Shown here: piece by piece, positions 4,651 through 64,000 of the stretch
Position numbering within the stretch: position 1 is the stretch's first letter
Layout: each line of letters opens with the position of its first letter
From: Herpomyces periplanetae
Lineage: Eukaryota > Ascomycota > Laboulbeniomycetes > Herpomycetales > Herpomycetaceae
DNA length: 64,000 bases
Assembly: GCA_009733715.1 (NCBI GenBank)
Contig: WMKJ01000016.1
Coordinates: forward strand, 102,715 to 166,714
Reading direction: 5' to 3'
Position numbers and translations under genes: made by a program
The notes under the pieces: generated by a model
Databases searched by the model: none
Seen by the model: only the letters and a program-made list of their open reading frames with translations
What the model was told of the DNA's origin: nothing

Positions 4651-5000
4651 ATAGTAATAATCCCAATATCAGCGTTAACCAAAAAATATAATTTCAACCT
4701 AAATACACAACAGATAAATCAGCCGTCGCTTTATCAACAGCTGAATGAGAAGATAAATGCAAATAGAGAAAGATAAAATCACTCGAAGTCTCCGTTGTCA
4801 TTAAGATATTGGACATCTTAAATAAGTGAGGTGATTGTTTTGACACCATTCGAACCTGACCTATCTTGGCCATCTCCTCGTATACATTTTGTTGAGTCGA
4901 TCCATGGAATTTTCTTATCTTGATATTGTATTAAAATTGCAAATTGCAGTCAATCGAATTTAATATTCCTTTGCTTTTTTCCTAACGTATTTACAGTTTT
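4651..5000. repeat. Dispersed repeat family A, copy 1 (decayed)
   Basis: This block lines up, with many substitutions and small gaps, with 8.88-9.2 kb and 19.5-19.8 kb. Shared landmarks in the same order are a 'caatatca' start, 'gagaaagat', 'ggacatctta', 'cttggccatc' and a 'cttatcttgatattgta' stretch. The order and spacing are kept, so common descent is more likely than chance in AT-rich DNA. With the copy at 8.7-9.4 kb it flanks the gypsy remnant at 6.7-7.0 kb, so the pair could be decayed long terminal repeats of one element. That last step is inference. Confidence 0.5.
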
Positions 5001-6684
5001 GGGGGATGTTCCACACGGAATATTCTTTCCTTTTTACTAAACAGTGGATCTTTGGATACATTTTTTTCGGGCCAAGATCATTTAATTATTGTTTCAGACA
5101 ACCTTAACTAAAGACAAATGTTGATTATTTTTGCTAGCATCTCAAAAAGTCAAACTTTGATATGATCCAAATTTTTAATTGACTTTTTGCGGATAAGTTA
5201 TTTCAGGAGATATAGATCTTGTCATTTTTTTGATAATTACAGCATTTTTCTGCTAAATCATGTAATATTTGGCTATCTTGAAGGATAAAATTTTTATATA
5301 TTTGAAAAGCCGACAATGCATTAAAATGAGTTAATATATATAACATCTCCCTTTGTAATTATGCACTGTCTTGTATATATTCTTGGTGGGCTATAGTATT
5401 GAAGATGTAATTTGCAGAAATAGGTGATAGTTGGAATGTCAGGCTCAGTGTTGTTGAAAAAGAACTGCATCATTGGTAGCATCTCAACTAATTTTTTACA
5501 AATATAGCCAACGTAACAATCGTGATTTTTTTTACTATTTTTTTGGTCTGCTTATTTTGTAGATTAATCTATTAATGAAAAGCTGACGACAATTTATGCT
5601 TAATTTCGAGTTCTCTCATGAGTGTTTTCCATATTTTACACTCAAATATTTTTTCTGTCTGTTAAAATTTATTTTGAAACGTATGACTTCTCAATATAGA
5701 TTTCAGAAAGGTATAGGTGCGATTCTTCCTGGTACTCATTTCTAGAAGCGGTATGAAAAGAATTTCATAAGATTATCCGCTATTACAAGTAATTAACAGT
5801 AGACAATATTTATAACTGGGTATTTTGACTTTGGTAGTACAATATAAAGTTCATTGACATTGATTACCATGGTTGCTCGGGTCTTTGAATGCTCTGGAGA
5901 CCTCAAAATTACGCGTTTGTGTAAGATTTGTAACGAAAGAGACTATCACAAGAGAGCATGTTATTTTTTATAGTGTTATGTAGTTCAAAGAAGCTGAAAT
6001 ATATATATATCGGCCCAATTGCACCCTGAATTCTTTGGTATTTATGGGCGATTACTCCATGTTGTTTCCTTAATAGTAGCGTCCTCATTATAATTTGTAC
6101 GTAAACAAAACCACAAAATAGAATAATTTCATTTTGGCCTCTCATTACTCGAAGAACATTTTTGAACTTCAAAAGTTTTGGTTCATAATGTTATTTAAGC
6201 AGGCCTCCATTTTAATTTCTCTAATAAGTTTAACTTTTTCTCTGTACGCAGCTAGTTTTTATGAATATCATAGTTAAGTTTGTTCCAGCCATCTGTTTGG
6301 AATAATAAGAAATTCAATGTAATGTTTCCACATGGTCCAGATTATTTAACACTGTTCCAATAGCAAAGTCTAATGTGAATATTACGACGCAGATAAAATT
6401 TTCCCGATCATGAACGCTGTGAATGAGGAATTTGATGAAACTTCACACCAATTTTGTAAAGGAGTCTTGGTAATACTTGGTCTACTCAAACTTGACATTT
6501 CTTTTGGTGGTAGTCATGGGTGGTTTTATGATGATGACGTAATTTGAAATTTATTTGAGATAGAATATCTCGGAGTTATAAAACAATAGTATTTTTTTCA
6601 CATCCTTGAGTAGAAGTTAGCAAAAAGTATCGTTTAACTTATCGAGGATTCATTTTATCGATACTGGATTCAGTAATCTTTTAG
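5001..6684. other. Probable decayed transposon interior, no intact gene
   Basis: AT-rich sequence between a family A repeat and a recognisable reverse transcriptase remnant. No reading frame longer than about 90 codons and no motif that I recognise. By position it may be the remains of RNase H and integrase of the same minus-strand gypsy element, but I could not confirm any motif. Confidence 0.35.
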
Positions 6685-8735: not shown

Positions 8736-9400
8736 GTTTGACAGGTTAAGGTTTATTTGAGAAAAACGAAGTATAGTTGGAATTTTAGGTGAAGTAAATA
8801 CAAATTTTTCAAATAGCACACTGTGTAAGGTATACTCTACAAAATATACACGGCGAAAACTAAACAAAATCAATATTAATAGCAATATCAGTGTCAACAA
8901 GACAAAAAAATGGTTCCAGGTTAATTAAATAACGGACATAGAGTAAAAAATCATTGCTTTGTCAGCACCCAAACGAGAAATGAAAGTAGAGAAAGATGAT
9001 CCCTGAGATCCCAGCTATTATTTTACATTGCGGACATCTTATTTACATGAAATAGCCAAATATATACCATCCAGTTTCAACTTGTCTTGGTCATCTTCAC
9101 GTGAATATTTTATCAAATCGTTAAACCAGATTTTCATATCTTAGTATTGTAATGAAATTCGGTAATTACAGTTACAGTCTATTATAATATTCCGGTATAA
9201 TTACGAACGTGCTTGAGTGCCTCATTTGTTTCATGCGCAAGCGGTATAATTTTAATATATTCTACTTAATTAAAGCATTAAATATTACGGAATTGTTTTG
9301 TGAAATTTTGGTGTGTCCTTGATTCATGAAGACTTAAACGTTACCTGCTTTTTCTTTATGTGCATCTTGATACTTACCTACATTTTATGGGGGAACGCAA
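8736..9400. repeat. Dispersed repeat family A, copy 2 (decayed)
   Basis: Aligns over roughly 650 bp with 19.39-20.11 kb in the same orientation. Matching landmarks in order are 'gtatagttggaattttaggtg' against 'gtatagttgtgatttcgggtg', 'ctgtgtaaggt', 'caatatcagtgt', 'gagaaagat', 'atcccagct', 'ggacatctta', 'catatcttagtattgta', 'attccggtata' and 'cctgctttttctt'. Divergence is high and includes small gaps. No coding capacity is evident. It may be the right terminal repeat of the gypsy relic at 6.7-7.0 kb. Confidence 0.6.
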
Positions 9401-19389: not shown

Positions 19390-20110
19390 CTTGGCAAACA
19401 GGCAGTATAGTTGTGATTTCGGGTGAAGTAGTCACAACTACCTAAAATAAAGTACTGTGTAAGATCTACTCGACAAAGTAGACAAAGCGACAATCCAACA
19501 AGCACAGTAACAATATCAATATCAATGTTGACCAGACAAAAGATATGGTTTCAAGCTGATTGCACAACAGACAAAGAGTAAGCAGTTGCCGCTTTATCAA
19601 CAGCTGAACAAGAAACAAAAATTGAGAAAGATAACCTTTAAAATCCCAGCTGTTATTAGGATCTCAGACATCTTAATCATACGAAATGGTCAAGTCAACT
19701 CTATCCAGTTGACTTATCTTGGCCATCCCCATGTGTACATTTTTCCAAGTCGCTCCACCAGCTTTTCATATCATGACACTGTGATGTAATTGAAATTTGC
19801 GGTCACAATTGAAATCAATGTTCCGGTATCATTGCGAGTGTGATTGAGTTCCCCAACATTTATTGCGTGTGAGACACATCAGTTTCCGTGCATATCTATT
19901 AAATTATCGCATTAAATATCACAGCAATACTTCCTGCTATTGCCGTGAAATTTTAGTAAGCCTTTGTAACAGGCTACTTCCTGATTCTCAGAAAATACCC
20001 AACTGATATTTCCTAGCAGATGATAATTATCACCGTAATACCTTATGCTTGCTCCATGAGGACAGAAAAGCCACCTGCTTTTTCTTCATGTGCATCGTGG
20101 CATTTGATTA
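19390..20110. repeat. Dispersed repeat family A, copy 4 (best preserved)
   Basis: The least decayed looking copy, matched over its length to 8.74-9.4 kb and over its middle to 4.65-5.0 kb and 19.1-19.36 kb. It contains a perfect 9-bp inverted repeat (19692-19700 and 19707-19715, six-base spacer) that is degraded in the other copies. No coding potential. Its nature is unproven; an LTR of a gypsy element is my best guess. Confidence 0.6.
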
Positions 20111-20499
20111 CATGATAGTCAAATCATGCTATCAGTTAGATTGCAACCGGGCAGGCTAGCTAACTCTTTGTGTAACCAAAGTTACCTTCAATGCCTCCAA
20201 AATTGGTCTACGTGTTCTAGACACGAAAATCTGCATTCATCACATGATCAATGCTCCGGTATCAACACGAATATGTTTGCACCATGAAGACGTAGGCTAC
20301 TCTCACTTCATTTTGTGGATCGAGTCACGTAGCTATGTGATGTGCCACGTGGCTGACCTGCTCAGCAAATATGTGCTACGAGTGATTTCCTCGCAAAATC
20401 TGCCTCCGTCATTATCGTAGAGAATTTTACTAAATCGCTATTGCAGAACATCTAAACATTGTTTTCGATGTCCTCAATCCGTAAGAAAATTCTAAGAAT

Positions 20500-49954: not shown

Positions 49955-51214
49955 TCAACCGGAAGAGCCAGGCGGCGGTGGAGGACCCTGACGTTGCGCT
50001 GAGCGCCGTTTAGCTTCATTTTCCTCGGGATGGCGATGTTTCCACGCGCGATATATAGCATGGGAAGCTTCAAGTAAATCTTGCTGAGTGACACCATCAT
50101 CAATGCTAGCGAGAATGCGCTTCACCGTTTCAATGTGATTTGATTCAGCTTTATCATCGCGAAAACGTGGAGCACCGGACGGTTCAGACTTGTAGCGCCA
50201 TCGTCCAGCCTTATCCTTATGACATTCGATAATGCGACCATCAAGCGGCTGGTTAACTCGTTTCATACATGACCATTCGTGATCTGTTATGTATAGCGAA
50301 TCAAAGCGTTGATAGTTATTTTGCCCGTGGAAAACGTAGAGATCAAAGTCCGGTTTAGCATTGTAATCACGTTGAGCGTGGGCATCATCAGCTGTAGTGG
50401 CTGTGGGTCCAGGAGCAGATGATTCGGAATCGCTGGTTCCAGTGGAAGGAGAGAGTAGCGGAAACGTTCCAAGTTTGAGGCGAAAGTCGATTGAATTTTC
50501 TTCGGGAGGTTTCCACTTAAGGATGCGTTCATCCGTTCCCGTAACATAAGCGGTTTCCTTGCACGTAAATATTAAGCCGTCACAACCATGGGATAGACTG
50601 GGAAGTTTATCGCGAAACATCATTTCAAGGCCATACGGCTTCTCCATAATTTTAAATTTAACGTGAAAGGGCATGTCGTGCAACGCAGCGGGAAATTGCT
50701 TGAGAAAGGCATGATAAGGTTGGTAAACGAAAGCGCTAAAAGCTCCTATACGCTTGTCAAGAGGTTTATGCAATAGACTACGTGAATCGAGAACTAGACA
50801 GTCGAATACAAGATAACTTAAACGTCGGGTTCCATCACTTCGAAGGTCGTTAACAAGTTCACCATCAATTAGCGTAGCACGATGAAAGTTTCGCATAGTG
50901 GGATCGTCTTGATGAGGGAAGTGAAGGCTACGAAGGAAGTAATAATCATTTTTGCGATCGATTAAATAGTGGATTTCTTTGCCATATTCATCTTCAGTAC
51001 AGTAAAGTAGACAGCGTATACCGTCAGTTTTTTCACAGAGATAATAATCTCGACGCTGAAGTTCATCAAGATGATTGCGCGTAAAGCTGACCGGTTGAGA
51101 ACCTGGAAACGAAGTATTCGCTCGATTCAGCAATTGAGCCACTTCCCGTCGAAATAACTTGGCCAGCGCAGGTTGACATTTAACACCGGGAATTTGAGGC
51201 ACTGAGCTCTCCAT
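49955..51214 (-). CDS. CEG1: mRNA guanylyltransferase (capping enzyme alpha subunit)
   Basis: Transfers GMP from GTP to the diphosphate end of nascent Pol II transcripts through a lysine-GMP intermediate. A single exon of 419 residues, close to the yeast size of 459. The nucleotidyltransferase motifs are in order: motif I EKTDGIR with nucleophile Lys62, motif III LIDGELV at about 116-121, motif IV CDGLIFT at about 211-217, and motif V ILKWKPP at about 231-237, followed by the OB-fold with DGRIIEC and WRYK. There is no N-terminal triphosphatase domain, as in fungi and unlike animals, so a separate triphosphatase is expected elsewhere. The C-terminus ends in a short poly-Pro/Gly tail. Confidence 0.96.
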   Translation of the reverse strand: MESSVPQIPGVKCQPALAKLFRREVAQLLNRANTSFPGSQPVSFTRNHLDELQRRDYYLCEKTDGIRCLLYCTEDEYGKEIHYLIDRKNDYYFLRSLHFPHQDDPTMRNFHRATLIDGELVNDLRSDGTRRLSYLVFDCLVLDSRSLLHKPLDKRIGAFSAFVYQPYHAFLKQFPAALHDMPFHVKFKIMEKPYGLEMMFRDKLPSLSHGCDGLIFTCKETAYVTGTDERILKWKPPEENSIDFRLKLGTFPLLSPSTGTSDSESSAPGPTATTADDAHAQRDYNAKPDFDLYVFHGQNNYQRFDSLYITDHEWSCMKRVNQPLDGRIIECHKDKAGRWRYKSEPSGAPRFRDDKAESNHIETVKRILASIDDGVTQQDLLEASHAIYRAWKHRHPEENEAKRRSAQRQGPPPPPGSSG

Positions 51215-51497
51215 GTAGAGATGAGCACGCGTAAAATCATTTAAACGGTAAAGGACGTTTTACGCAAGCAAGCATGTAAGTACGCACGCACACACGTACG
51301 CATATACACCCCGATTAGAACATGAAATTTGGTGAAAATATGGAAAAGTGATAAAACCCTTGTGAAACTAAATCAGTAACCACTTTTCTCGAGAAACTGT
51401 GCGGATGCGCGTGTGCAAATGGATGTGCAGCGCGATAGAAAATATTTTTCGCGACGCACAGCTGCAAGAGCGTCACAAATGAATTAGGTAAGCCAAT
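51215..51497. promoter_or_regulatory. CEG1 promoter / PDS5 3' flank
   Basis: 283 bp upstream of CEG1 and downstream of PDS5, both on the minus strand. It contains runs of alternating 'cgca/cacgtacg' type sequence. No specific site is recognised. Confidence 0.4.
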
Positions 51498-54400
51498 TTA
51501 GGGGGAAACGGCGACGACGGAGACGGTTTCGGTGGCAGCTATGGCGTCTGTCTCACTTTCACTTTCCCCCTCACTTTCACTTTCACTATCACTCTGTATT
51601 GTGGATGATAATGATTCGGCATTGGAATCGGACAGTTCAGTATAACACTTTTGATTGTGTGACAATCGTGAACTTTTGCGAAGAGGTGTCGCGGGTGTAG
51701 ATGCATTTGCAGATTTCGAATGATTCGTTGAAATTTTAGTTGTACGTGATGACCTCGGTTTCTTATGACCTGCCACTTTTGTTGATAATGGTGAAGTAGG
51801 ATTCAACCTACGCTTCCGTGACACAGTATCAGCCTGTACACCAACATCAGCTTGGTGATGTAAATAATGAGACCCAGTAGTATGATGATGGTGATGAACT
51901 TGATGATGATCCGTTTCGTGCAAAAACTTTCGTATTAAACGATCAATTGCACTATCGTCGTTCATCTCATTATTCAAATGTTTTTTCATAATGACCTCCC
52001 GACATCGCTCAGTCGAGCTAATTGATTGAAACACTCGAGATGATAACCTTAACTTTCCCGGCCAACTCTGCAAATTCCAATTCATCATGGAAACCCATCG
52101 GCGAATAATCAACTGAGATAACTCAGAAAGAATATACAAATTAACATTAACATCGTCCACGCAAGAATCTCGAAAAGTTAAAGGAAGATCCCGTGACAAG
52201 GGGGAATTTGAAACAGTCGTCCTTTCCTGACTCGGAATGGGGAAGGCGCATGTGGGCCTTGACACCTCCTGCCCCTGTTTCAGCCCTACGGAACTCTGAA
52301 ACGGTCCCGCCCCACTTCCCGTTTCGGTAATCTGTTTTTTTTCGTTTGTTTGGACGTCAACTTGGGTGGTTAAGTTGTCAGATATGGTGCTTGCTGTGTG
52401 TTTTGTAGGTCGGGATTTAGAACGGTAACCAGGTTTATCTTGATTGTCGCTTGTGACTAATTCTACCGTTTTCATTCTTTGTGCAATATAGAATATTAAC
52501 GATACGTTTTCCTCGGTGGAAACCGTCCTCATAAAAAATAAAATGTATTGTGAGAAGTCCATTAAAACTTCCCGCTCATTTTCAAAATCTGGATGATGCG
52601 CTAGTAAACCCAAAAATCGTGAAAACGTTTCTTCCATGCGTCCACTACCCTCCACTATGTTACCACCACGTTTAATCATCACCACCATCTTAGCTTTGAT
52701 CCATTTGCCCACCTTTTCGCGGACCAATTCCACCGGTTCAAACGCCATCAAAAAGAGTATCGTCAAAAATCGTCCTGACAATCGTTCACTACTTAAGTAT
52801 TTCATTAACTTTTCGACAAATCCCCGCCGCACCCATCGTACTTCATCTTGGCTCATTAATGCCAGCCCGTTAAAATTGTCTTCCGTTAATAACCTGTCTA
52901 CACCACCACCATCTTTTCCTCGTGAACTCATTTTGATTAGCATAAGCCCTGATTTCATTCGCATATACGCCTTTTCCAATTTTTTTTCACACTTGCTCAT
53001 CGTAACCGTTCCTTCATCTAATCCCATTCCCCCATTCTCCCGTAATAATTTAATCAATACTTTCATTACTCTGTTACCAATTTCGTCAACCCGTTTTCCC
53101 TCCACTTGACATCGACATACCCAATTAACCAGTATTTTCATTGCCAATGCCTTTGCAACGCATGTTCGACCAATCTTTTCCTTCCATCCATCATCATCAT
53201 CATCATCATTACTATCATCATACCCATCCCCATTTTCCTCCTCACTATCCGCTGTGTCGCCGGTTCTAACCTCACTACTTTGCTCATTCATTTCATCTCG
53301 CATTAACACTTTGTTTACCGCCAGTTCCATAATTTCGTCCAAACTGTTTTCTACTGCATCCCACGCCCCGTATAGTATAGTTTGACTGATCGTTGCTAAC
53401 TTGGCCACGCCAAACTCTTCATCCATCGAGAAATCGTTTATACACTTCGCAAGTAATTCATGTGTAATAGTCCGCTGCTTGTCCATAGCATTCTCGATTT
53501 CATTGCTTTTGCCTCCCACTAGAAGAATTCGAGTAGCATACTTAGCGCTACGTCCATCCTGCCCTTCGAATGCGTATCGCTTTAAGCTGTCGGAAAATTC
53601 TTGTGATATTGGTACATCCAAAGGAAAATGTCGTGCAAAGTTCGCACATGCTTTTAACTCATCTACGCCTCCTTCTTGACCCACGGTTTCCGATAACTCT
53701 CGAATATGTGCCTTGAATACTTCAGGCCGACCTTGAGATATTTCTTTCAGCATCTCTTGGCCCGCTTCTCCAAGCATCTTTTCATTAGTTCGCGAATATT
53801 CTATTATCCAACCTACATGGCTCCGATTATACACCAGAATTCCAACCCGGTAAAGCAGAACCTCCAATACTTCCCAAATTCCACTCGCTCCAGCCCATAG
53901 TAATCGTTTGTTCAGCTCACGCATCGATCGTGTTACTTTGCTGTAATTACTCTCAACATCCATGCAAAATCGTATCAAAGTGTAGCATCGACGGTCATTC
54001 ATTTCAACAAATTTCCACAGCTCTGTCATCGCCCGTGCACCGTCTGGTAAGGTCCCTGCAAAGTAGTCAATTAACATCTTCAGTTGACTGCGTACATTTG
54101 TTTCCCCCGTTCCTACACCACCATTATACTGCTCTGATCGTCCTAAAAATGCTTCCATGTATCGCGCCAATCCTCCCTGATTGTTTAAACGAGAAAAAAA
54201 TACACGCTTTGCCTTAACTTCTAGCCCTTTCGCAAGCACAAGTATACGCTCTGTGCGAATTTTTTCCACTTCTCCCGTTGCTTTCTTTCCACTCATTACT
54301 GGATAACGAATTGGAATAATATACTCATAAATAGCTCGGTCCACCAAACCAGTTATCTCCACATCATTAATATAGTACGTTTCAATGATTCGTGACGCTA

Positions 54401-56357
54401 TACTGCTTAACATTTCCGAAATTCCCTCTTTCGCTTCAGCAATTGCACCCGATGCTACTCCCCAGATCTTGCTTAACAGCACAATCGCAGCCGTACGTAC
54501 GGTAGCTCGCCTATCTTTAACCCGTTCCACCAGGTGATTCAACACTGTGCCCTTTTTGTCCACACCACCGTGACGACCCAACTTTTCTACAATACTACGA
54601 AAGTCGTACGCTTCAATTCCTCGCACACTTGCCAGACGTACGCGCTCATCAACGTCAACGAGCATACTAGCTAGATATTCTAGTAAACGACGTTCTTCCG
54701 CTTCTTCGAGACCCACACCCCCAGCGGAAGTTAGAATTATGCGTGTGATTGTTCCCGCGAAACCAGCTCGAACCAAGGCTGATCTATCGTTTCTGCGTCC
54801 TAGAAACATTTCATACGTTCCATTATGTTGTAGAATAAACGAATGAAATGATGTTGGTGTGGTAAAAAAGTTATACTCTTCGTTTATACACATGGTGCCC
54901 ACCTTTTTGTTACCTGGTGCTGCACCATCACGTTTCCACTTGCTAGTTTCATTAATTTGGTCGCATAAACTCTGAGAAGGATATGCTTCTGGATCTAAAG
55001 GCCTCATGGTACGACCACCACTTGCACCAATTCCTCCGATCATATCACCGACGGTTTCCGTAGCCAACAAGCGAATTTGAACATTCTCCGTAACTAACTC
55101 TGCTTCCAATTGACCCATAACGCCAGTTAACACTTCAGGTGTTGCACGCCACAGTTCTCTAGCCAGTCGATGAGCTCTAACTAGTTCATCGGATAATTCT
55201 TTATTCTGAGTCCCACGATCACTGCTCGTAGCGCCACCCGATCCGGAAGCCTTACCCGATTCATTTATGGTATTTGCAACACTCCTCGTCAAGCCGGCAA
55301 CTTCCATAACAAGTGAGCTAAAGTAATGGCTGACGGCACGTCCCATGGCATCTACACAAGAATTACAGATATTTTTTGCCATATTATAGGCTAGAGGAGC
55401 TTCTTTAACGCATAAGCGAGTTTGGTTAAGCTTAATGTCATTAATTGAAGCGGCGCCTAAGGCATTTCCACCTTTCTTACTTCCTTTGGTCTGACCCGCA
55501 ATAATTGTTGCAGGGTCAGCGCGTAAGAATTGGGCAAGTAGAATTTCCGTTATCTCGGTGGGTAGACCACCTTCAATTTCGGTGACGAGGGTTGCTAACA
55601 ATGCGGTCATATAATGCTCAATATTCTTACTCAATTCGTCACCACTAGTTTCACTTCCCGTGGTGGCAGCAGTAGATAGAACGTCGAAGCACGTAGTGAA
55701 TAAATAAGTCATAAGATCACGAGCCGAATCGATATCCGTTAAGAGCACGATTGACTGAACCTCAGCGAGCGATTTTAACACGAAAACATGTTGCTCATTA
55801 TACGGATGATTGGCATTGCCTAGCTCGGGAAATACAGTATTCAATATCATGGTAAAAATGGCCCGAAGTTGGCCTGCATTATATGGGGCATTTGGTGCGC
55901 ATAAACGAAACATTTCAACGATACAGCATGCTGTCCAAGCGCGAACTCCACGATCTTTGTGCGTTAACAAGCTTGAGTGTGACAATTCTTGCGCTACCTT
56001 GAGTAATGAATCGCGTTGTACGTTATCTTGGCCCAAGCTTTTCATTTCCTCAGCTAGCTTTCCAAGCCGAATTAGCAATTCACGTACACTGGGCGTAACA
56101 CCACCAGATTTTGCGATTAATCGTTCATTGAAGCTAAGCGCGGTTAGTTTATCTTTAGTTCGCGCATCGTCAATTTTGAGAGAAAGCTGTGATTGTTGTA
56201 GTTCCTGTTTTGGCTCTTGCAGCTGCCGCTGCTTCTGCTGTTGTTGCTTTGATTTAACATTATCCTTTTCTACCTTTCGTGTTTTATCAACTTTCTTCCC
56301 TTTCTCCAATTTATCCGTTCGCTCTCCTAAACTGCCTTTACTGCGCGTTCGACCCAT
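51498..56357 (-). CDS. PDS5: Sister chromatid cohesion protein Pds5
   Basis: HEAT-repeat protein that binds the kleisin-SA face of cohesin and regulates its release, acetylation and loop size. A single exon of 1619 residues, longer than yeast (1277) and human PDS5B (1447). Diagnostic N-terminal block: LTHKDRGVRAWTACCIVEMFRLCAPNAPY followed by QLRAIFTMI and VLKSLAEVQSIVLLTDI. HEAT repeats continue through YEMFLGRRNDRSALVR, VDVDERVRLASVRGIEAYDF and VKDRRATVRTAAIVLLSKIW. An acidic run (SNDDDDDD) lies near residue 1045. The last 300 residues are a variable basic and Ser-rich tail with a His-rich patch and KKPRSSRTTK-type stretches. The frame is open two codons further up, but with GTG and ATA before the first ATG. 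The start region is exactly repeated, inverted, at the right end of the window. Confidence 0.94.
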   Translation of the reverse strand: MGRTRSKGSLGERTDKLEKGKKVDKTRKVEKDNVKSKQQQQKQRQLQEPKQELQQSQLSLKIDDARTKDKLTALSFNERLIAKSGGVTPSVRELLIRLGKLAEEMKSLGQDNVQRDSLLKVAQELSHSSLLTHKDRGVRAWTACCIVEMFRLCAPNAPYNAGQLRAIFTMILNTVFPELGNANHPYNEQHVFVLKSLAEVQSIVLLTDIDSARDLMTYLFTTCFDVLSTAATTGSETSGDELSKNIEHYMTALLATLVTEIEGGLPTEITEILLAQFLRADPATIIAGQTKGSKKGGNALGAASINDIKLNQTRLCVKEAPLAYNMAKNICNSCVDAMGRAVSHYFSSLVMEVAGLTRSVANTINESGKASGSGGATSSDRGTQNKELSDELVRAHRLARELWRATPEVLTGVMGQLEAELVTENVQIRLLATETVGDMIGGIGASGGRTMRPLDPEAYPSQSLCDQINETSKWKRDGAAPGNKKVGTMCINEEYNFFTTPTSFHSFILQHNGTYEMFLGRRNDRSALVRAGFAGTITRIILTSAGGVGLEEAEERRLLEYLASMLVDVDERVRLASVRGIEAYDFRSIVEKLGRHGGVDKKGTVLNHLVERVKDRRATVRTAAIVLLSKIWGVASGAIAEAKEGISEMLSSIASRIIETYYINDVEITGLVDRAIYEYIIPIRYPVMSGKKATGEVEKIRTERILVLAKGLEVKAKRVFFSRLNNQGGLARYMEAFLGRSEQYNGGVGTGETNVRSQLKMLIDYFAGTLPDGARAMTELWKFVEMNDRRCYTLIRFCMDVESNYSKVTRSMRELNKRLLWAGASGIWEVLEVLLYRVGILVYNRSHVGWIIEYSRTNEKMLGEAGQEMLKEISQGRPEVFKAHIRELSETVGQEGGVDELKACANFARHFPLDVPISQEFSDSLKRYAFEGQDGRSAKYATRILLVGGKSNEIENAMDKQRTITHELLAKCINDFSMDEEFGVAKLATISQTILYGAWDAVENSLDEIMELAVNKVLMRDEMNEQSSEVRTGDTADSEEENGDGYDDSNDDDDDDGWKEKIGRTCVAKALAMKILVNWVCRCQVEGKRVDEIGNRVMKVLIKLLRENGGMGLDEGTVTMSKCEKKLEKAYMRMKSGLMLIKMSSRGKDGGGVDRLLTEDNFNGLALMSQDEVRWVRRGFVEKLMKYLSSERLSGRFLTILFLMAFEPVELVREKVGKWIKAKMVVMIKRGGNIVEGSGRMEETFSRFLGLLAHHPDFENEREVLMDFSQYILFFMRTVSTEENVSLIFYIAQRMKTVELVTSDNQDKPGYRSKSRPTKHTASTISDNLTTQVDVQTNEKKQITETGSGAGPFQSSVGLKQGQEVSRPTCAFPIPSQERTTVSNSPLSRDLPLTFRDSCVDDVNVNLYILSELSQLIIRRWVSMMNWNLQSWPGKLRLSSRVFQSISSTERCREVIMKKHLNNEMNDDSAIDRLIRKFLHETDHHQVHHHHHTTGSHYLHHQADVGVQADTVSRKRRLNPTSPLSTKVAGHKKPRSSRTTKISTNHSKSANASTPATPLRKSSRLSHNQKCYTELSDSNAESLSSTIQSDSESESEGESESETDAIAATETVSVVAVSP
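53180..53226. repeat. Trinucleotide ATC/GAT microsatellite in PDS5
   Basis: Tandem 'catcatcat' units with one interruption encode the poly-Asp/Asn acidic run on the minus strand. It keeps the PDS5 frame. Confidence 0.8.
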
Positions 56358-56399
56358 TATCACCCGAACCTTACGTTAAAATCCCTTTAATCGCCGTTA
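56341..56399. repeat. Inverted repeat arm 1 (PDS5 start region)
   Basis: These 59 bases are identical, in reverse complement, to 63942-64000. They cover the first 17 bases of the PDS5 coding sequence and 42 bases upstream. Identity stops at 56400, where the two flanks differ. See arm 2 at the window end. Confidence 0.97.
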
Positions 56400-56853: not shown

Positions 56854-58513
56854 TCAATTTACACTTGTTTCCCCGGCTTTTTTGGCCTTTTTTTTCTCCT
56901 TACTCTTCTTCGACTTCTCTTCTTTTCTCTTCCGCTTAGATTCACCCGACTTTTCCTTTTGCTTTTCCTGAATTTCACCCCTATCTTCACACTCTCCTTT
57001 TGGTGTATCCCCTGGTTGTTTTATTAAATCTTCATTTTGTTTTTGCCGCGTCATTCCCGTTACCAATTCTATCGTGCTACCGGACGCGTCTGTATACTTT
57101 TCTTTCCATTCTGCGGGCGTACTCTCATTTACTTTTCCATATTTCTGTTCTCTTCGTCAGCTATCTTCTCGACTGTATCATCCGTGTTTGTATGAACTTA
57201 CATCTAACTTTCCTGCTTTCTTCAATTTTTTCTTCTCTTGGGCTACCGGACCTAATCCCCATCGGCGTGGATACACGTCCCGTTCCATAACAACTCTTTT
57301 AATTTTGGCAACAACTCCATGGTCACAACTTGCCAAGTCTGCTGTGGACATCATTGCTATTGCCAGAGCAATTGCCTCTCCTTTGGTTGATATTATTACT
57401 ACCTCATCGAACTGTTGAATGTTCGCTTCTGTTGATTCGTTAGTTAAATCGTTCGTATTTCACATCGCCTTTATCTTACCATATCGCAATAGTCCTGGCA
57501 TCATAACCTTCGCTCCGTAAGTTATCGCATTGATTGCACTATCTTTAACTACCAGCCTTTTATATGTAACGAGTAAACTCTCCAGAGGCTGTATAACCGA
57601 TCTTATGTAGGTTTCATCGCGTCGCGAATTTAATGCCCATTGAGCGTCCATAACATCGTGCAATGTCACCATATTTTGCTTTTCGCTCATAATACCACTT
57701 CGGACTCTTCGCAACTCTTGCATATGAGCTCCGACACCCAGTAGGACACCCAGGTGAACGCAAAGTGTACGAATATATGTTCCGGCCTCACAACTAACCC
57801 AGAATACACCCAGATTACGTGCCTCGTCGTACTCGTAAAGCTTTGATTGGTAAATTGTTCGGATACGTAACTGTCGTTTAACGGCTGAAATGAGAGGAGG
57901 TCGCTGAAATAATGCACCGCTTAACGTTTCTAGGCCACGTGCAACGGCTTTTTCACCGCCTGGTACACTAGCGTGGAAACGCACAACACAAACGTACTCC
58001 TTGCCAGCACTTTGCTGAGCTTTTACTAGTCGAGTTGCACGATCAATACACACGATCAAGCATCCGGTAACTTTTGGATCTAGAGTACCGCTGTGACCGG
58101 TTTTGTCGACCCTACAGGTTGATTAATGGTGAATTTGTGAATTAAAAGTACATAGGGCGCCCTTGAACTTACTTTAGTATACGTTTAATCCACGCCACAA
58201 CTTCATGACTCGATGGGTTCGACGGTTTATCTAGGTTAATCACACCCGAACTAATATAGGCTTTCAAATCACGCTTTAACGGTTCACTACCCGCTGGGAT
58301 AGGTGTGTAGTGAGACGTCCGTACAAGAACTAAATGTGACAAGTTAACATGAAGTGTATTCATAGAGTATACACCCGAGCGGAGGAAAGGATGGCCCGTT
58401 TTTAAAATCTTACGTTTATTCCAATCTTTGAGTAGCAAAGGAAAGTCTGCACCGGGCACATCCATTGCTATTTTCTTATCCGGTTTAATAATATATTCCA
58501 CTTGATTTTCCAT
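56854..58513 (-). CDS. CBF5: Cbf5/dyskerin, H/ACA snoRNP pseudouridine synthase
   Basis: Catalytic protein of box H/ACA particles that modifies rRNA and supports ribosome biogenesis. I join five exons: 58513-58414, 58329-58173, 58111-57480, 57428-57202 and 57144-56854, giving 468 residues. The first intron (84 bp) is open in frame; splicing it restores [18 protein letters not shown], as in all relatives. TruB blocks: [39 protein letters not shown] with catalytic Asp97, and [16 protein letters not shown]. The PUA domain follows ([14 protein letters not shown] ... [16 protein letters not shown] ... [18 protein letters not shown]), and the tail is the usual Lys/Glu-rich repeat. Start chosen at [11 protein letters not shown], matching the family's short N-terminus. 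Introns are 51-84 bp. Confidence 0.96.
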
Positions 58514-59596
58514 TTTACGCAGAAGTAGGCTTAGTTGACACCTTAATTGTGCAGCCGCGCACACTGACACACTCACTCATACACAATTATTCACACCGCG
58601 TGGATTTCATGCCCGTTCGCCAATTAACCCAAGCATCAAGACAAATCACTGATCCCCCTTACGCCACCCAAAATTAAGTGTTGACAAAAGCGTACGTTAA
58701 ACGTAGAACTAATTTCAATCAATACGCTTTACAAGCCATATAAGTATATATATATTAACATAAGAAAAACTAATCCTCTTTCCCCTTGCAATTTTCAACA
58801 TCACCAACTTATCGGTCCACTCGCGCCCGTGGGCTGGACCTGCTTACCTAATGCTTCACGTGATGGCACCGGGGAATTGTTTTGACGGTTCCGGCGCATT
58901 GAGGAGCAGCGAAACAGTTTGTCGAGATGGAAATTTACATCGCGAGAAGTTTGTTCTGTCTTGCTATATTGTGCTTTGTTACTCACGCCTTGTTGTGTGA
59001 AATTACACTGTGCTAGACTAATTAATCCTCCCGTCATTGTTTTGTTAGAGTACAAGTGTATATGTGTATATAAGTCATTCATTTGCTCTTTTATTTGAGA
59101 GTTTTCACGTCCAATATTTTACTCCATATTAGTTCTGTCAGACGTGAACATGTGAAGGAACTAAATAGACAATATCTCTTAGGTATACATAATCTGAAAG
59201 TTAATACTACATCCTAATATTTTAATTAACTTATATCCTCATATTTGACTATTGCATAACAGACAACCATTTAGTGCATAGTCAACTTAGATGACAAGGT
59301 CACTCATACTTACTAGTTCACACGTACACCCTAGGCTCACATGTTTTCTCATTTCTTTTCCACTTGGCTTGGTGTTGAGTTATTGCGAGCACCACAACCC
59401 CGCCTCGTATCCGTCTTCTATTCGAGTACCGTACAGCACTAGAATAACCTACATTATAAAAATCACTAAACAAAGCAACACTACAAAATGCGATGGGGTA
59501 CGAAATGACATGATACCGTGTGGCACCATGAGACAGTAGCTCACCGGGGAATGCGTGCCCATTATGCAAGCTTAATTTTAATTCTACTATTTCAAT
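58514..59596. other. Intergenic between CBF5 and derlin
   Basis: About 1.1 kb holding the CBF5 promoter and the derlin 3' flank. A 93-codon minus-strand frame at 58801-59082 (ending SREALGKQVQPTGASGPISW) has protein-like composition in its second half but matches no family I know; I do not call it as a gene with confidence. Other frames at 59.3-59.57 kb occur on both strands and look like chance. Confidence 0.45.
58801..59082 (-). CDS. Possible small protein of unknown function
   Basis: A complete ATG-to-stop frame of 93 codons in the gap between CBF5 and the derlin gene. A second ATG 15 codons in (MTGGLISLAQ) could be the start. The C-terminal half is polar and basic (SSMRRNRQNN, then VPSREALGKQVQP) with no membrane segment or known motif. 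It has room for its own promoter and does not overlap another gene. It may equally be chance; only homologues or transcripts would settle it. Confidence 0.2.
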   Translation of the reverse strand: MNDLYTHIHLYSNKTMTGGLISLAQCNFTQQGVSNKAQYSKTEQTSRDVNFHLDKLFRCSSMRRNRQNNSPVPSREALGKQVQPTGASGPISW

Positions 59597-60874
59597 TTAA
59601 CTGTCACCACCTAGCCGTCTTCCTGGTCCGCGGACGCTCCAAGTTGAACTATTAGGTTTTACAAATCCTGACATCCAGTTACCAGTAGTAGATGAAGCTG
59701 ATTGCCTTTGTGATTGTGATTGTCGTAAAATATTACTCGGACTAGCATACGCTGTTCCGTACGTTCGGTTGATTGAAGGGCGCACGTTACCATTGTTAAA
59801 TAGTGCGGAAATGAATTCAGGTGTACGTATAAAGTTCCGTCCGCCCCCATATATTGGCCATATCTTTGTGAGAAATTCGTATAAATGAGCAGCAATGAAT
59901 CCAGTTAATTGAAATAACATTGCTTCATGTCCTGCCATTACCAACGTAAGAAATAGCATGGCTAAAGGAAGATATCGTACGCGCACTGGCAATAAAAACA
60001 ACGATATTTGTCGATCGGCGAAATCCTGGGAATACGTGTACGCAAATGCTAATAATAAAGCTAAGAGGTCCCATTATGTTGAGTCAACAGACTTTCAATT
60101 TCGGTTATTGTATTACTTTTTCACTTGAATGACAAACCGTGTACATACGCTGTATAAATACTGCACCATTCATGAAGATTCCTCCGATAAGCTGTGCGTA
60201 CGAATTGAATTAGATGTGAATCCATATGAAAATGTGAGCATTATGAAAAGCTAAGCCTTAAAGCTTTTCGCATACCAAGATAACTGTGCCGACGAATAAC
60301 ACATATGTTACAAAGTCCGCCGTAGATGCAAATCTTGATGACTCAACTTCGAGGGCCGAAGCACATGTAAACACTACAGGTAATTTGAGTTAAACTTGCC
60401 GGTTTATATGAACCAATGGATAAATATAAGCGGGTCAGCGAGCGTGCATGCATACATGCACGTAAGCTTAGGCTAGCATAAAGGTGCGCGGAACGTACAA
60501 AAATAGGGATCTAACACAATGGAAAATCCGCTACCCGTTACCAGAAACGATGTTGCTAAACGCCACAACTGTGGAGGAAATCGGAAAACACGGGATTTAA
60601 TAAAGGGTAGAAGGAACATTGGAATAACCCGTGAATGTGCAAGTGTTGATACAAGTACAGCCGATGCCGCAATCGTTCTGTAAGTTCATCATAGTATGTA
60701 CATTTATATGTGCACGCCTACGTGAGTATATATACTCACGCGTTAAAGTTCCCCATTTGCACGTACCACTGAATGTTAGCCATGTATTCTCATATTAATC
60801 ACACTTGCCTGACATTGCAAGTTCATGAATTCATCCTACCTTGATACGGGGGGGGCATCCCAAAATACATTCAT
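59597..60874 (-). CDS. DFM1: Derlin, Dfm1-like ERAD rhomboid pseudoprotease
   Basis: Multi-span ER membrane protein that retrotranslocates misfolded proteins and recruits Cdc48. Five exons: 60874-60840, 60677-60499, 60373-60276, 60191-60149 and 60060-59597, giving 272 residues, with introns of 162, 125, 84 and 88 bp. It begins MNVFWDAPPVSRTIAAS, matching the family's W-x3-PPVTR opening. The derlin WR motif is present in PPQLWRLATSFLVTGSG, followed by DPYFLFTCASALE, TADFVTYVLFVG, LIGGIFMNGAVF, FAYTYSQDFADRQ and QLTGFIAAHLYEFLTKIWPIYGGGRNFI. The end VRGPGRRLGGDS is a SHP box (G-x-G-x-x-L-G), the Cdc48/p97-binding motif of Dfm1 and Derlin-1/2. No catalytic Ser-His pair is apparent, as expected. 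Confidence 0.93.
60721..60740. repeat. Perfect 20-bp palindrome in derlin intron 1
   Basis: The ten bases CGTGAGTATA are followed directly by their exact reverse complement. It lies in the 162-bp first intron of the derlin gene, upstream of the acceptor, and reads the same on both strands. Confidence 0.95.
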
Positions 60875-63020: not shown

Positions 63021-63917
63021 TCACGATATACTAGGCCTGATCAGTGGTCCGATCCAATCACAACGTCTCTGTAACTCATCGGCCACAGAAGAAAGTTCTC
63101 CAGAAAATTGAGAAACGCTCAAGATAAGGTCTAAATTAGCTCCCGCTTTAGTTGGAAGACTTCTATGAGTAGCTGCTTCTAACACGTCACGCAGGGAAAA
63201 TGACGACGAAACTTCACCGTTAACAGATCCCGTGGACGAGCTAATAATGGAAGAGTCAGCTGATGATGAGCTAACGGATGACGAGCCTGTCCCTAAAAAC
63301 GAAGTATCCATGAATCCATCGTCCGAATTAACCAAATTTCCCATTATCAAATCGGGTGACGAGGCTTTACTAGGAGACGAGTCACCGCCTTCAAGCGGAA
63401 AAAGTTGAGAAGAATCATCCGCATGAACTCCATACTCTTCACCATCGGCTGGTGTATCATCAATCATGTCCAACGGAAGAATATCATCATCGTGTACTTG
63501 TGGGTTTGGAAGTATACAATAAACATCAGATGTAGTATCTAAGCCCCCATTTATGCACGCGGGTAAACCGACAAACAGTGCATAATTGCGCTGCAAATAA
63601 AAGCGTAGCCGGTGAATCTGACGGTCCCATGCTTCCTGCACAATATCAAGCGCTGCGAGTACATCTTGTCGTACAGCCGTAGACCACTGAGGTTTGGCTT
63701 GATGATTCTTTATCATGCGACCAACAATCCTATTTCGCATCGATAAAGACTTTTGTAAGCCTGGTTGAGGATGTGCAGAATCTGCCAATATACGAGCCTG
63801 TGTCCCAGCTATACGCATGGCTTCCATTCGACTATCTAGCATTTCCGGAATATATAAAATTGACATATTACACTCCAATGCGTTAACCATACCCGTAAAT
63901 CCTGAAAGATCGATCAT
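63021..63917 (-). CDS. Unrecognised Ser/acidic-rich protein, possibly partial
   Basis: A continuous frame of 298 residues that I cannot assign. Residues 1-120 look folded and helical: VNALECNMSILYIPEML, MEAMRIAGTQARILADSA, SMRNRIVGRMIKNHQ and AALDIVQEAWDRQIHRLRFYLQRN. Residues about 140-240 are acidic and then poly-Ser (SSSVSSSSADSSIISSS), a likely disordered linker. The C-terminus returns to a helical pattern (LDLILSVSQFSGELSSVADELQRR). The ATG at 63917 is only 24 bp from the edge of the inverted PDS5 block, so the true 5' end may be missing; an acceptor-like 'ctttcag' occurs five codons into the frame. Coding is supported by length and amino-acid character, not by homology. Confidence 0.6.
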   Translation of the reverse strand: MIDLSGFTGMVNALECNMSILYIPEMLDSRMEAMRIAGTQARILADSAHPQPGLQKSLSMRNRIVGRMIKNHQAKPQWSTAVRQDVLAALDIVQEAWDRQIHRLRFYLQRNYALFVGLPACINGGLDTTSDVYCILPNPQVHDDDILPLDMIDDTPADGEEYGVHADDSSQLFPLEGGDSSPSKASSPDLIMGNLVNSDDGFMDTSFLGTGSSSVSSSSADSSIISSSTGSVNGEVSSSFSLRDVLEAATHRSLPTKAGANLDLILSVSQFSGELSSVADELQRRCDWIGPLIRPSIS

Positions 63918-63941
63918 ATTACGATCACAATGTACCTCTTG

Positions 63942-64000
63942 TAACGGCGATTAAAGGGATTTTAACGTAAGGTTCGGGTGATAATGGGTCGAACGCGCAG
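63942..64000. repeat. Inverted repeat arm 2 (second copy of PDS5 start)
   Basis: Reverse complement of 56341-56399 with 59 of 59 bases identical, running to the window edge and perhaps beyond it. It would place a second PDS5 start codon at 63984, reading rightward with coding sequence MGRTR and on. The left edge of identity is sharp at 63941/63942. Confidence 0.97.
63984..64000 (+). CDS. PDS5: Start of a second PDS5 copy, cut by the window edge
   Basis: The first 17 bases of the PDS5 coding sequence recur here on the plus strand with the same 42-bp upstream flank. Whether a full second gene, a fragment or an assembly join follows cannot be seen. I call it only because the identity is perfect and includes the start codon. 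Confidence 0.4.

Follow-up and report, generated by a model that had tools for sequence, protein, structure and literature searches.

Among the chimeras formed during multiple displacement amplification (MDA) and mapped by Lasken and Stockwell (2007, PMC1855051; n = 475), 85% joined their segments in inverted and 15% in direct orientation. In that account, the 3' end of a displaced strand primes anew on another displaced strand close by, the predominant product is an inverted join between segments that tend to lie less than 10 kb apart, and the junctions are typified by short complementarity of 2–21 nt. A comparable signal is described for nematode Illumina libraries, in which wrongly oriented read pairs were commoner after amplification (PMC4060946). 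The Lasken mechanism is there said to account for only part of the wrongly oriented reads in those data, most of which were attributed to fragments whose two ends carry one sequence in opposite orientations. Fungal single-cell genomes provide an example of MDA-amplified fungal assemblies.

The window analyzed here is the whole stretch of 64,000 nucleotides and corresponds to positions 102715–166714 of contig C70. This contig has 166,714 bases, and window base 64000 is thus its final base. A repeat search, with the identity rechecked, found window positions 63942–64000 to be the exact reverse complement of positions 56341–56399 (59 nt, 100%), with 7,542 nt separating the two arms. The arms and the genes around them are, in window positions:

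51498–56375, minus strand: PDS5, an intact frame of 1625 aa from stop to stop (Pfam PF20168, E = 4.3e-273)
56341–56399, minus strand: native copy with the start codon of PDS5 and its 5' flank, the presumed source of the chimeric piece
57460–58576, minus strand: exons of CBF5 (dyskerin-type pseudouridine synthase), between the arms (Pfam DKCLD and TruB)
59597–60685, minus strand: exons of a derlin (Der1-like), between the arms (Pfam DER1)
63021–63950, minus strand: orphan gene, 309 aa from stop to stop, crossing the junction, without a Pfam family
63941–63942, no strand: junction, where identity with the PDS5 flank sets in abruptly
63942–64000, minus strand: terminal 59 nt of the contig, exact reverse complement of 56341–56399, interpreted as lying beyond a chimeric junction

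The original prediction had described the last 59 bases as an inverted copy of the PDS5 start codon and upstream flank about 7.5 kb away, and this was borne out in identity (59 of 59 bases), in spacing and in the position of the inner arm at the start of the PDS5 frame. By chance, about 2e-25 exact inverted matches of 59 nt would be expected in 64 kb (independent bases, this composition). The two other inverted pairs of at least 25 nt in the window are both just 80% complementary. The boundary of the terminal copy is sharp: the 40 positions preceding 63941/63942 agree at 9/40, the chance level, and no similarity above that level was found upstream of the junction. In a genome-wide DNA search with window positions 63300–64000, the 59-mer occurred at two places only, itself and the PDS5 start, and the true continuation of the orphan-gene locus could be located at no other place in the assembly. 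A part of the 59-mer was also not found in bacterial and archaeal contigs, which is unsurprising for a fungus. Since C70 ends with window base 64000, the inverted copy forms the tail of the contig, and its extent beyond that point is unreadable in the assembly.

Several other sequences in the window were characterized. Three named genes had been proposed to lie between the arms beside an unknown one, and Pfam domains confirmed two of the three. CBF5 matched DKCLD and TruB above the cut-off and PUA just under it, and the derlin matched DER1 in two exons, one of them only barely over the cut-off. The Rcf3-like gene was not confirmed, as two short minus-strand frames among those at 61.3–62.0 kb gave no Pfam family above the cut-off. 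Downstream of PDS5, a minus-strand frame at 49955–51259 is, by a motif, a candidate mRNA capping guanylyltransferase. Direct repeats that are 65–80% alike and lie about 4–11 kb apart occur at window positions 4712–4751, 8940–8979 and 19575–19614, and at 9318–9383 and 20048–20113; they are possibly a small gene family that spread locally.

The terminal structure of C70 shares its main features with the inverted MDA chimeras (PMC1855051): the second segment is inverted, comes from the same molecule at a distance of less than 10 kb, and follows an abrupt junction with the intervening sequence skipped. It differs in the form of the evidence, as those chimeras were single 454 reads compared with a reference, whereas the present case is a contig tail known from the assembly alone. 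Like the read pairs of the nematode study (PMC4060946), which were commoner after amplification in this small eukaryote, it is an inverted join within one chromosome; there the observations are read-pair statistics, and here they are contig ends.

The same arrangement was found at other contig ends. Bases 1–77 of C60 are an exact inverted copy of its positions 5113–5189 (77 nt, gap of 5,035 nt), bases 1–60 of C150 copy its positions 2212–2271 (60 nt, gap of 2,151 nt), and the last 69 bases of C170 copy its positions 86570–86638 (gap of 1,888 nt). Together with C70, all four join two segments of one locus in inverted orientation, with a terminal arm that reaches the very first or last base of the contig and a partner on the same contig less than 10 kb away; the genome-wide searches list no other partner. 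The match at C60 extends imperfectly to 89 nt at 98% identity and that at C150 to 72 nt at 97%, some 12 nt beyond the exact portion, and the junctions there consequently lie in sequence that is partly alike on both sides.

Overall, terminal inverted self-copies were present at 4/32 ends examined, or 3/31 without the end of the window. The sample included 20 contig starts with 10 kb each, of which two were positive (C60 and C150). Low-complexity first bases in C2, C70 and C71 were scored as negative, and the start of C60 is A-rich. The ends of C10, C150, C110, C219 and C180 (8 kb each) contained no exact inverted repeat of at least 25 nt (0/5). Six further termini were drawn at random from 76, a pool obtained from 80 short termini by removing two poly-G ends and two termini already sampled with 8 kb, and were searched genome-wide; one was positive (C170). 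The start of C18, also among these six, belongs to a dispersed family and was counted as negative. This repeat family is 72–79% alike at five other places, including C70:80115–80214. Genome-wide screening thus covered the six random ends and that of the window, and the other 25 of the 32 were compared only with 8–10 kb of their own contig or with other sampled stretches, a design that favors near partners. A total of 264 kb served as background, namely the 64-kb window and 20 stretches of 10 kb, each of the 21 compared with itself and words of low dinucleotide variety excluded. No non-terminal exact repeat of at least 40 nt, inverted or direct, was found, and the sole exact repeats of this length were the terminal ones of C60, C150 and C70. 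When 120 termini were compared among themselves and against the sampled stretches (at least 25 nt), these copies were recovered and one direct case outside the 32 ends was added: C80 ends in 55 bases that exactly repeat C80:8942–8996, 10,086 nt away.

Contig ends also carried sequencing debris. In a scan of 150 bases at each of 119 termini (60 starts and 59 ends), the end of C215 had the 13-nt start of an adapter plus one base, a 13-mer that we take to be the Illumina adapter start. The end of C190 had 10 nt of the same adapter start, and the start of C75 had 12 nt of its reverse complement. A 9-nt match at base 73 of the C190 start diverges directly afterwards and may be due to chance; adapter 9-mers were absent from 251,400 bases of internal sequence (0 matches). 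Poly-G/C tails were present at no fewer than four termini, namely the starts of C2, C70 (bases 1–75) and C151 and the end of C130, so that the contig holding the window has such a tail at its opposite end. Such tails look more like failed sequencing cycles than genome. Raw-read artefacts therefore survive at some ends of this assembly.

Taken together, the exact terminal inverted copy, its position at the contig end, the single PDS5, the other ends of the same kind and the adapter and homopolymer debris argue that the terminal 59 bases of C70 are a technical artefact, to which we assign a probability of about 0.93 with all technical origins combined. The original prediction had also offered a chimeric read or inverted misjoin as one of two readings, and this one is well supported by a copy that is flush with the contig end and by the 3/31 other ends alike. 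It is best read as an inverted chimera that the assembler left as a dead end. The join would have formed while the DNA was being prepared, most likely during whole-genome amplification by MDA. A 3' end synthesized on the orphan-gene locus at about 63.9 kb would have come off that strand, primed anew near the PDS5 start on the opposite strand, 7.5 kb distant, and been extended into an inverted chimera. Where true coverage ended, with reads over the true continuation presumably missing or few, the assembler would have met reads of this chimera, retained a short tail and halted. We infer both the amplification step and the chimeric reads from the assembly itself. Tails of 55–77 nt would be explained as the dead ends of reads that resisted merging by the assembler, and tails shorter than its final k would likewise be expected to remain as dead ends. 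A plain de Bruijn k-mer overlap was considered for the 59-nt tail and rejected, since the tails vary (55, 59, 60, 69 and 77 nt) and no single k explains all of them. Against a technical chimera, 28/32 examined ends are without such a copy, and the direct copy of C80 is the minority form for the multiple displacement mechanism. Real repeats are, moreover, naturally enriched at contig ends.

Within the technical origins, a join that arose without amplification is a rather unlikely though serious candidate, whether as a ligation chimera of the library, as a long-read fold-back, or as a misjoin by the assembler or in gap filling. The adapter remnants and poly-G/C at contig ends do show that raw read artefacts entered the assembly, and the one case in direct orientation (C80) is compatible with such a join. 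However, the cases comprise four inverted and one direct, all within the same contig, as MDA chimeras tend to give. Random ligation should link unrelated contigs, but the six random ends searched genome-wide had no near-identical partner on another contig.

Much less probable is that the PDS5 5' flank, perhaps with more of PDS5, was really duplicated in inverted orientation beside the orphan gene, and only very recently, with the contig breaking inside a repeat that the assembler failed to resolve. The perfect identity over 59 nt, noncoding flank included, would agree with a recent event, and short-read assemblies do break at genuine repeats. Yet a repeat of sufficient length to halt the assembler ought likewise to interrupt the contig at its interior copy, as we would expect of de Bruijn assemblers, and this copy was assembled straight through. 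The PDS5 protein is encoded at a single place in the 13.8-Mb genome, although an assembler may collapse identical copies. Among the best 120 of 224 relatives of this protein, 119 are 42–50% identical and one is 39% identical, and the two top-scoring relatives come from Dothideomycetes. The ends of C60, C150 and C170 would, in addition, require several independent recent duplications, all terminating exactly at contig ends. The biological alternative in the original prediction, an inverted segmental duplication providing a second PDS5 5' end, would call for a sizeable second block and found no support: the assembly has one PDS5 and a piece of only 59 nt that is cut by the contig end. Sequence past that end could hold more, and this result concerns the assembly without disproving a duplication block in the organism. 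All in all, we consider a biological duplication very unlikely. Least probable of all is a combined reading, in which the promoter and start of PDS5 have only just been duplicated, inverted, beside the orphan gene, and in which the other terminal inverted copies of this assembly point to a fungus whose living genome frequently acquires short inverted template-switch duplications.

On the preferred reading as an inverted chimera, the sequence of the orphan-gene locus is genuine only as far as 63941. The prediction that the edge of this locus is affected proved correct, as the frame at 63021–63950 crosses the junction. Its most upstream 9 nt (63942–63950), which follow the upstream stop, lie within the foreign piece, and its true upstream sequence is therefore absent from the contig. 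An ATG is present within the native part, so that the coding sequence may be either complete or truncated. The orphan frame of 306 residues in the native part (63021–63941, minus strand) has a serine-rich stretch. No Pfam family was found for the 309-aa frame. Among 1,878 candidates, none was a homologue of the native 306-aa protein at E = 0.001 or better, in a search that required shared 5-residue words and similar length and from which a truncated or spliced gene could escape. In a comparison with solved structures it had no match below E = 0.1 and one at E = 0.12. A missing 5' part on another contig was considered, and the DNA, homologue, structure and Pfam searches did not place it.

The inverted PDS5 copy is thus very probably not a real genomic feature of this fungus. 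Contig ends of this assembly are untrustworthy, as some contain inverted self-copies, adapter pieces or poly-G/C tails, and genes located there, such as that at 63.0–63.94 kb, may include foreign bases. Any inverted duplication or new promoter claimed at an end of this kind requires read support, and a quick test of general use is to ask whether the repeat is flush with the contig end and whether other ends are alike.
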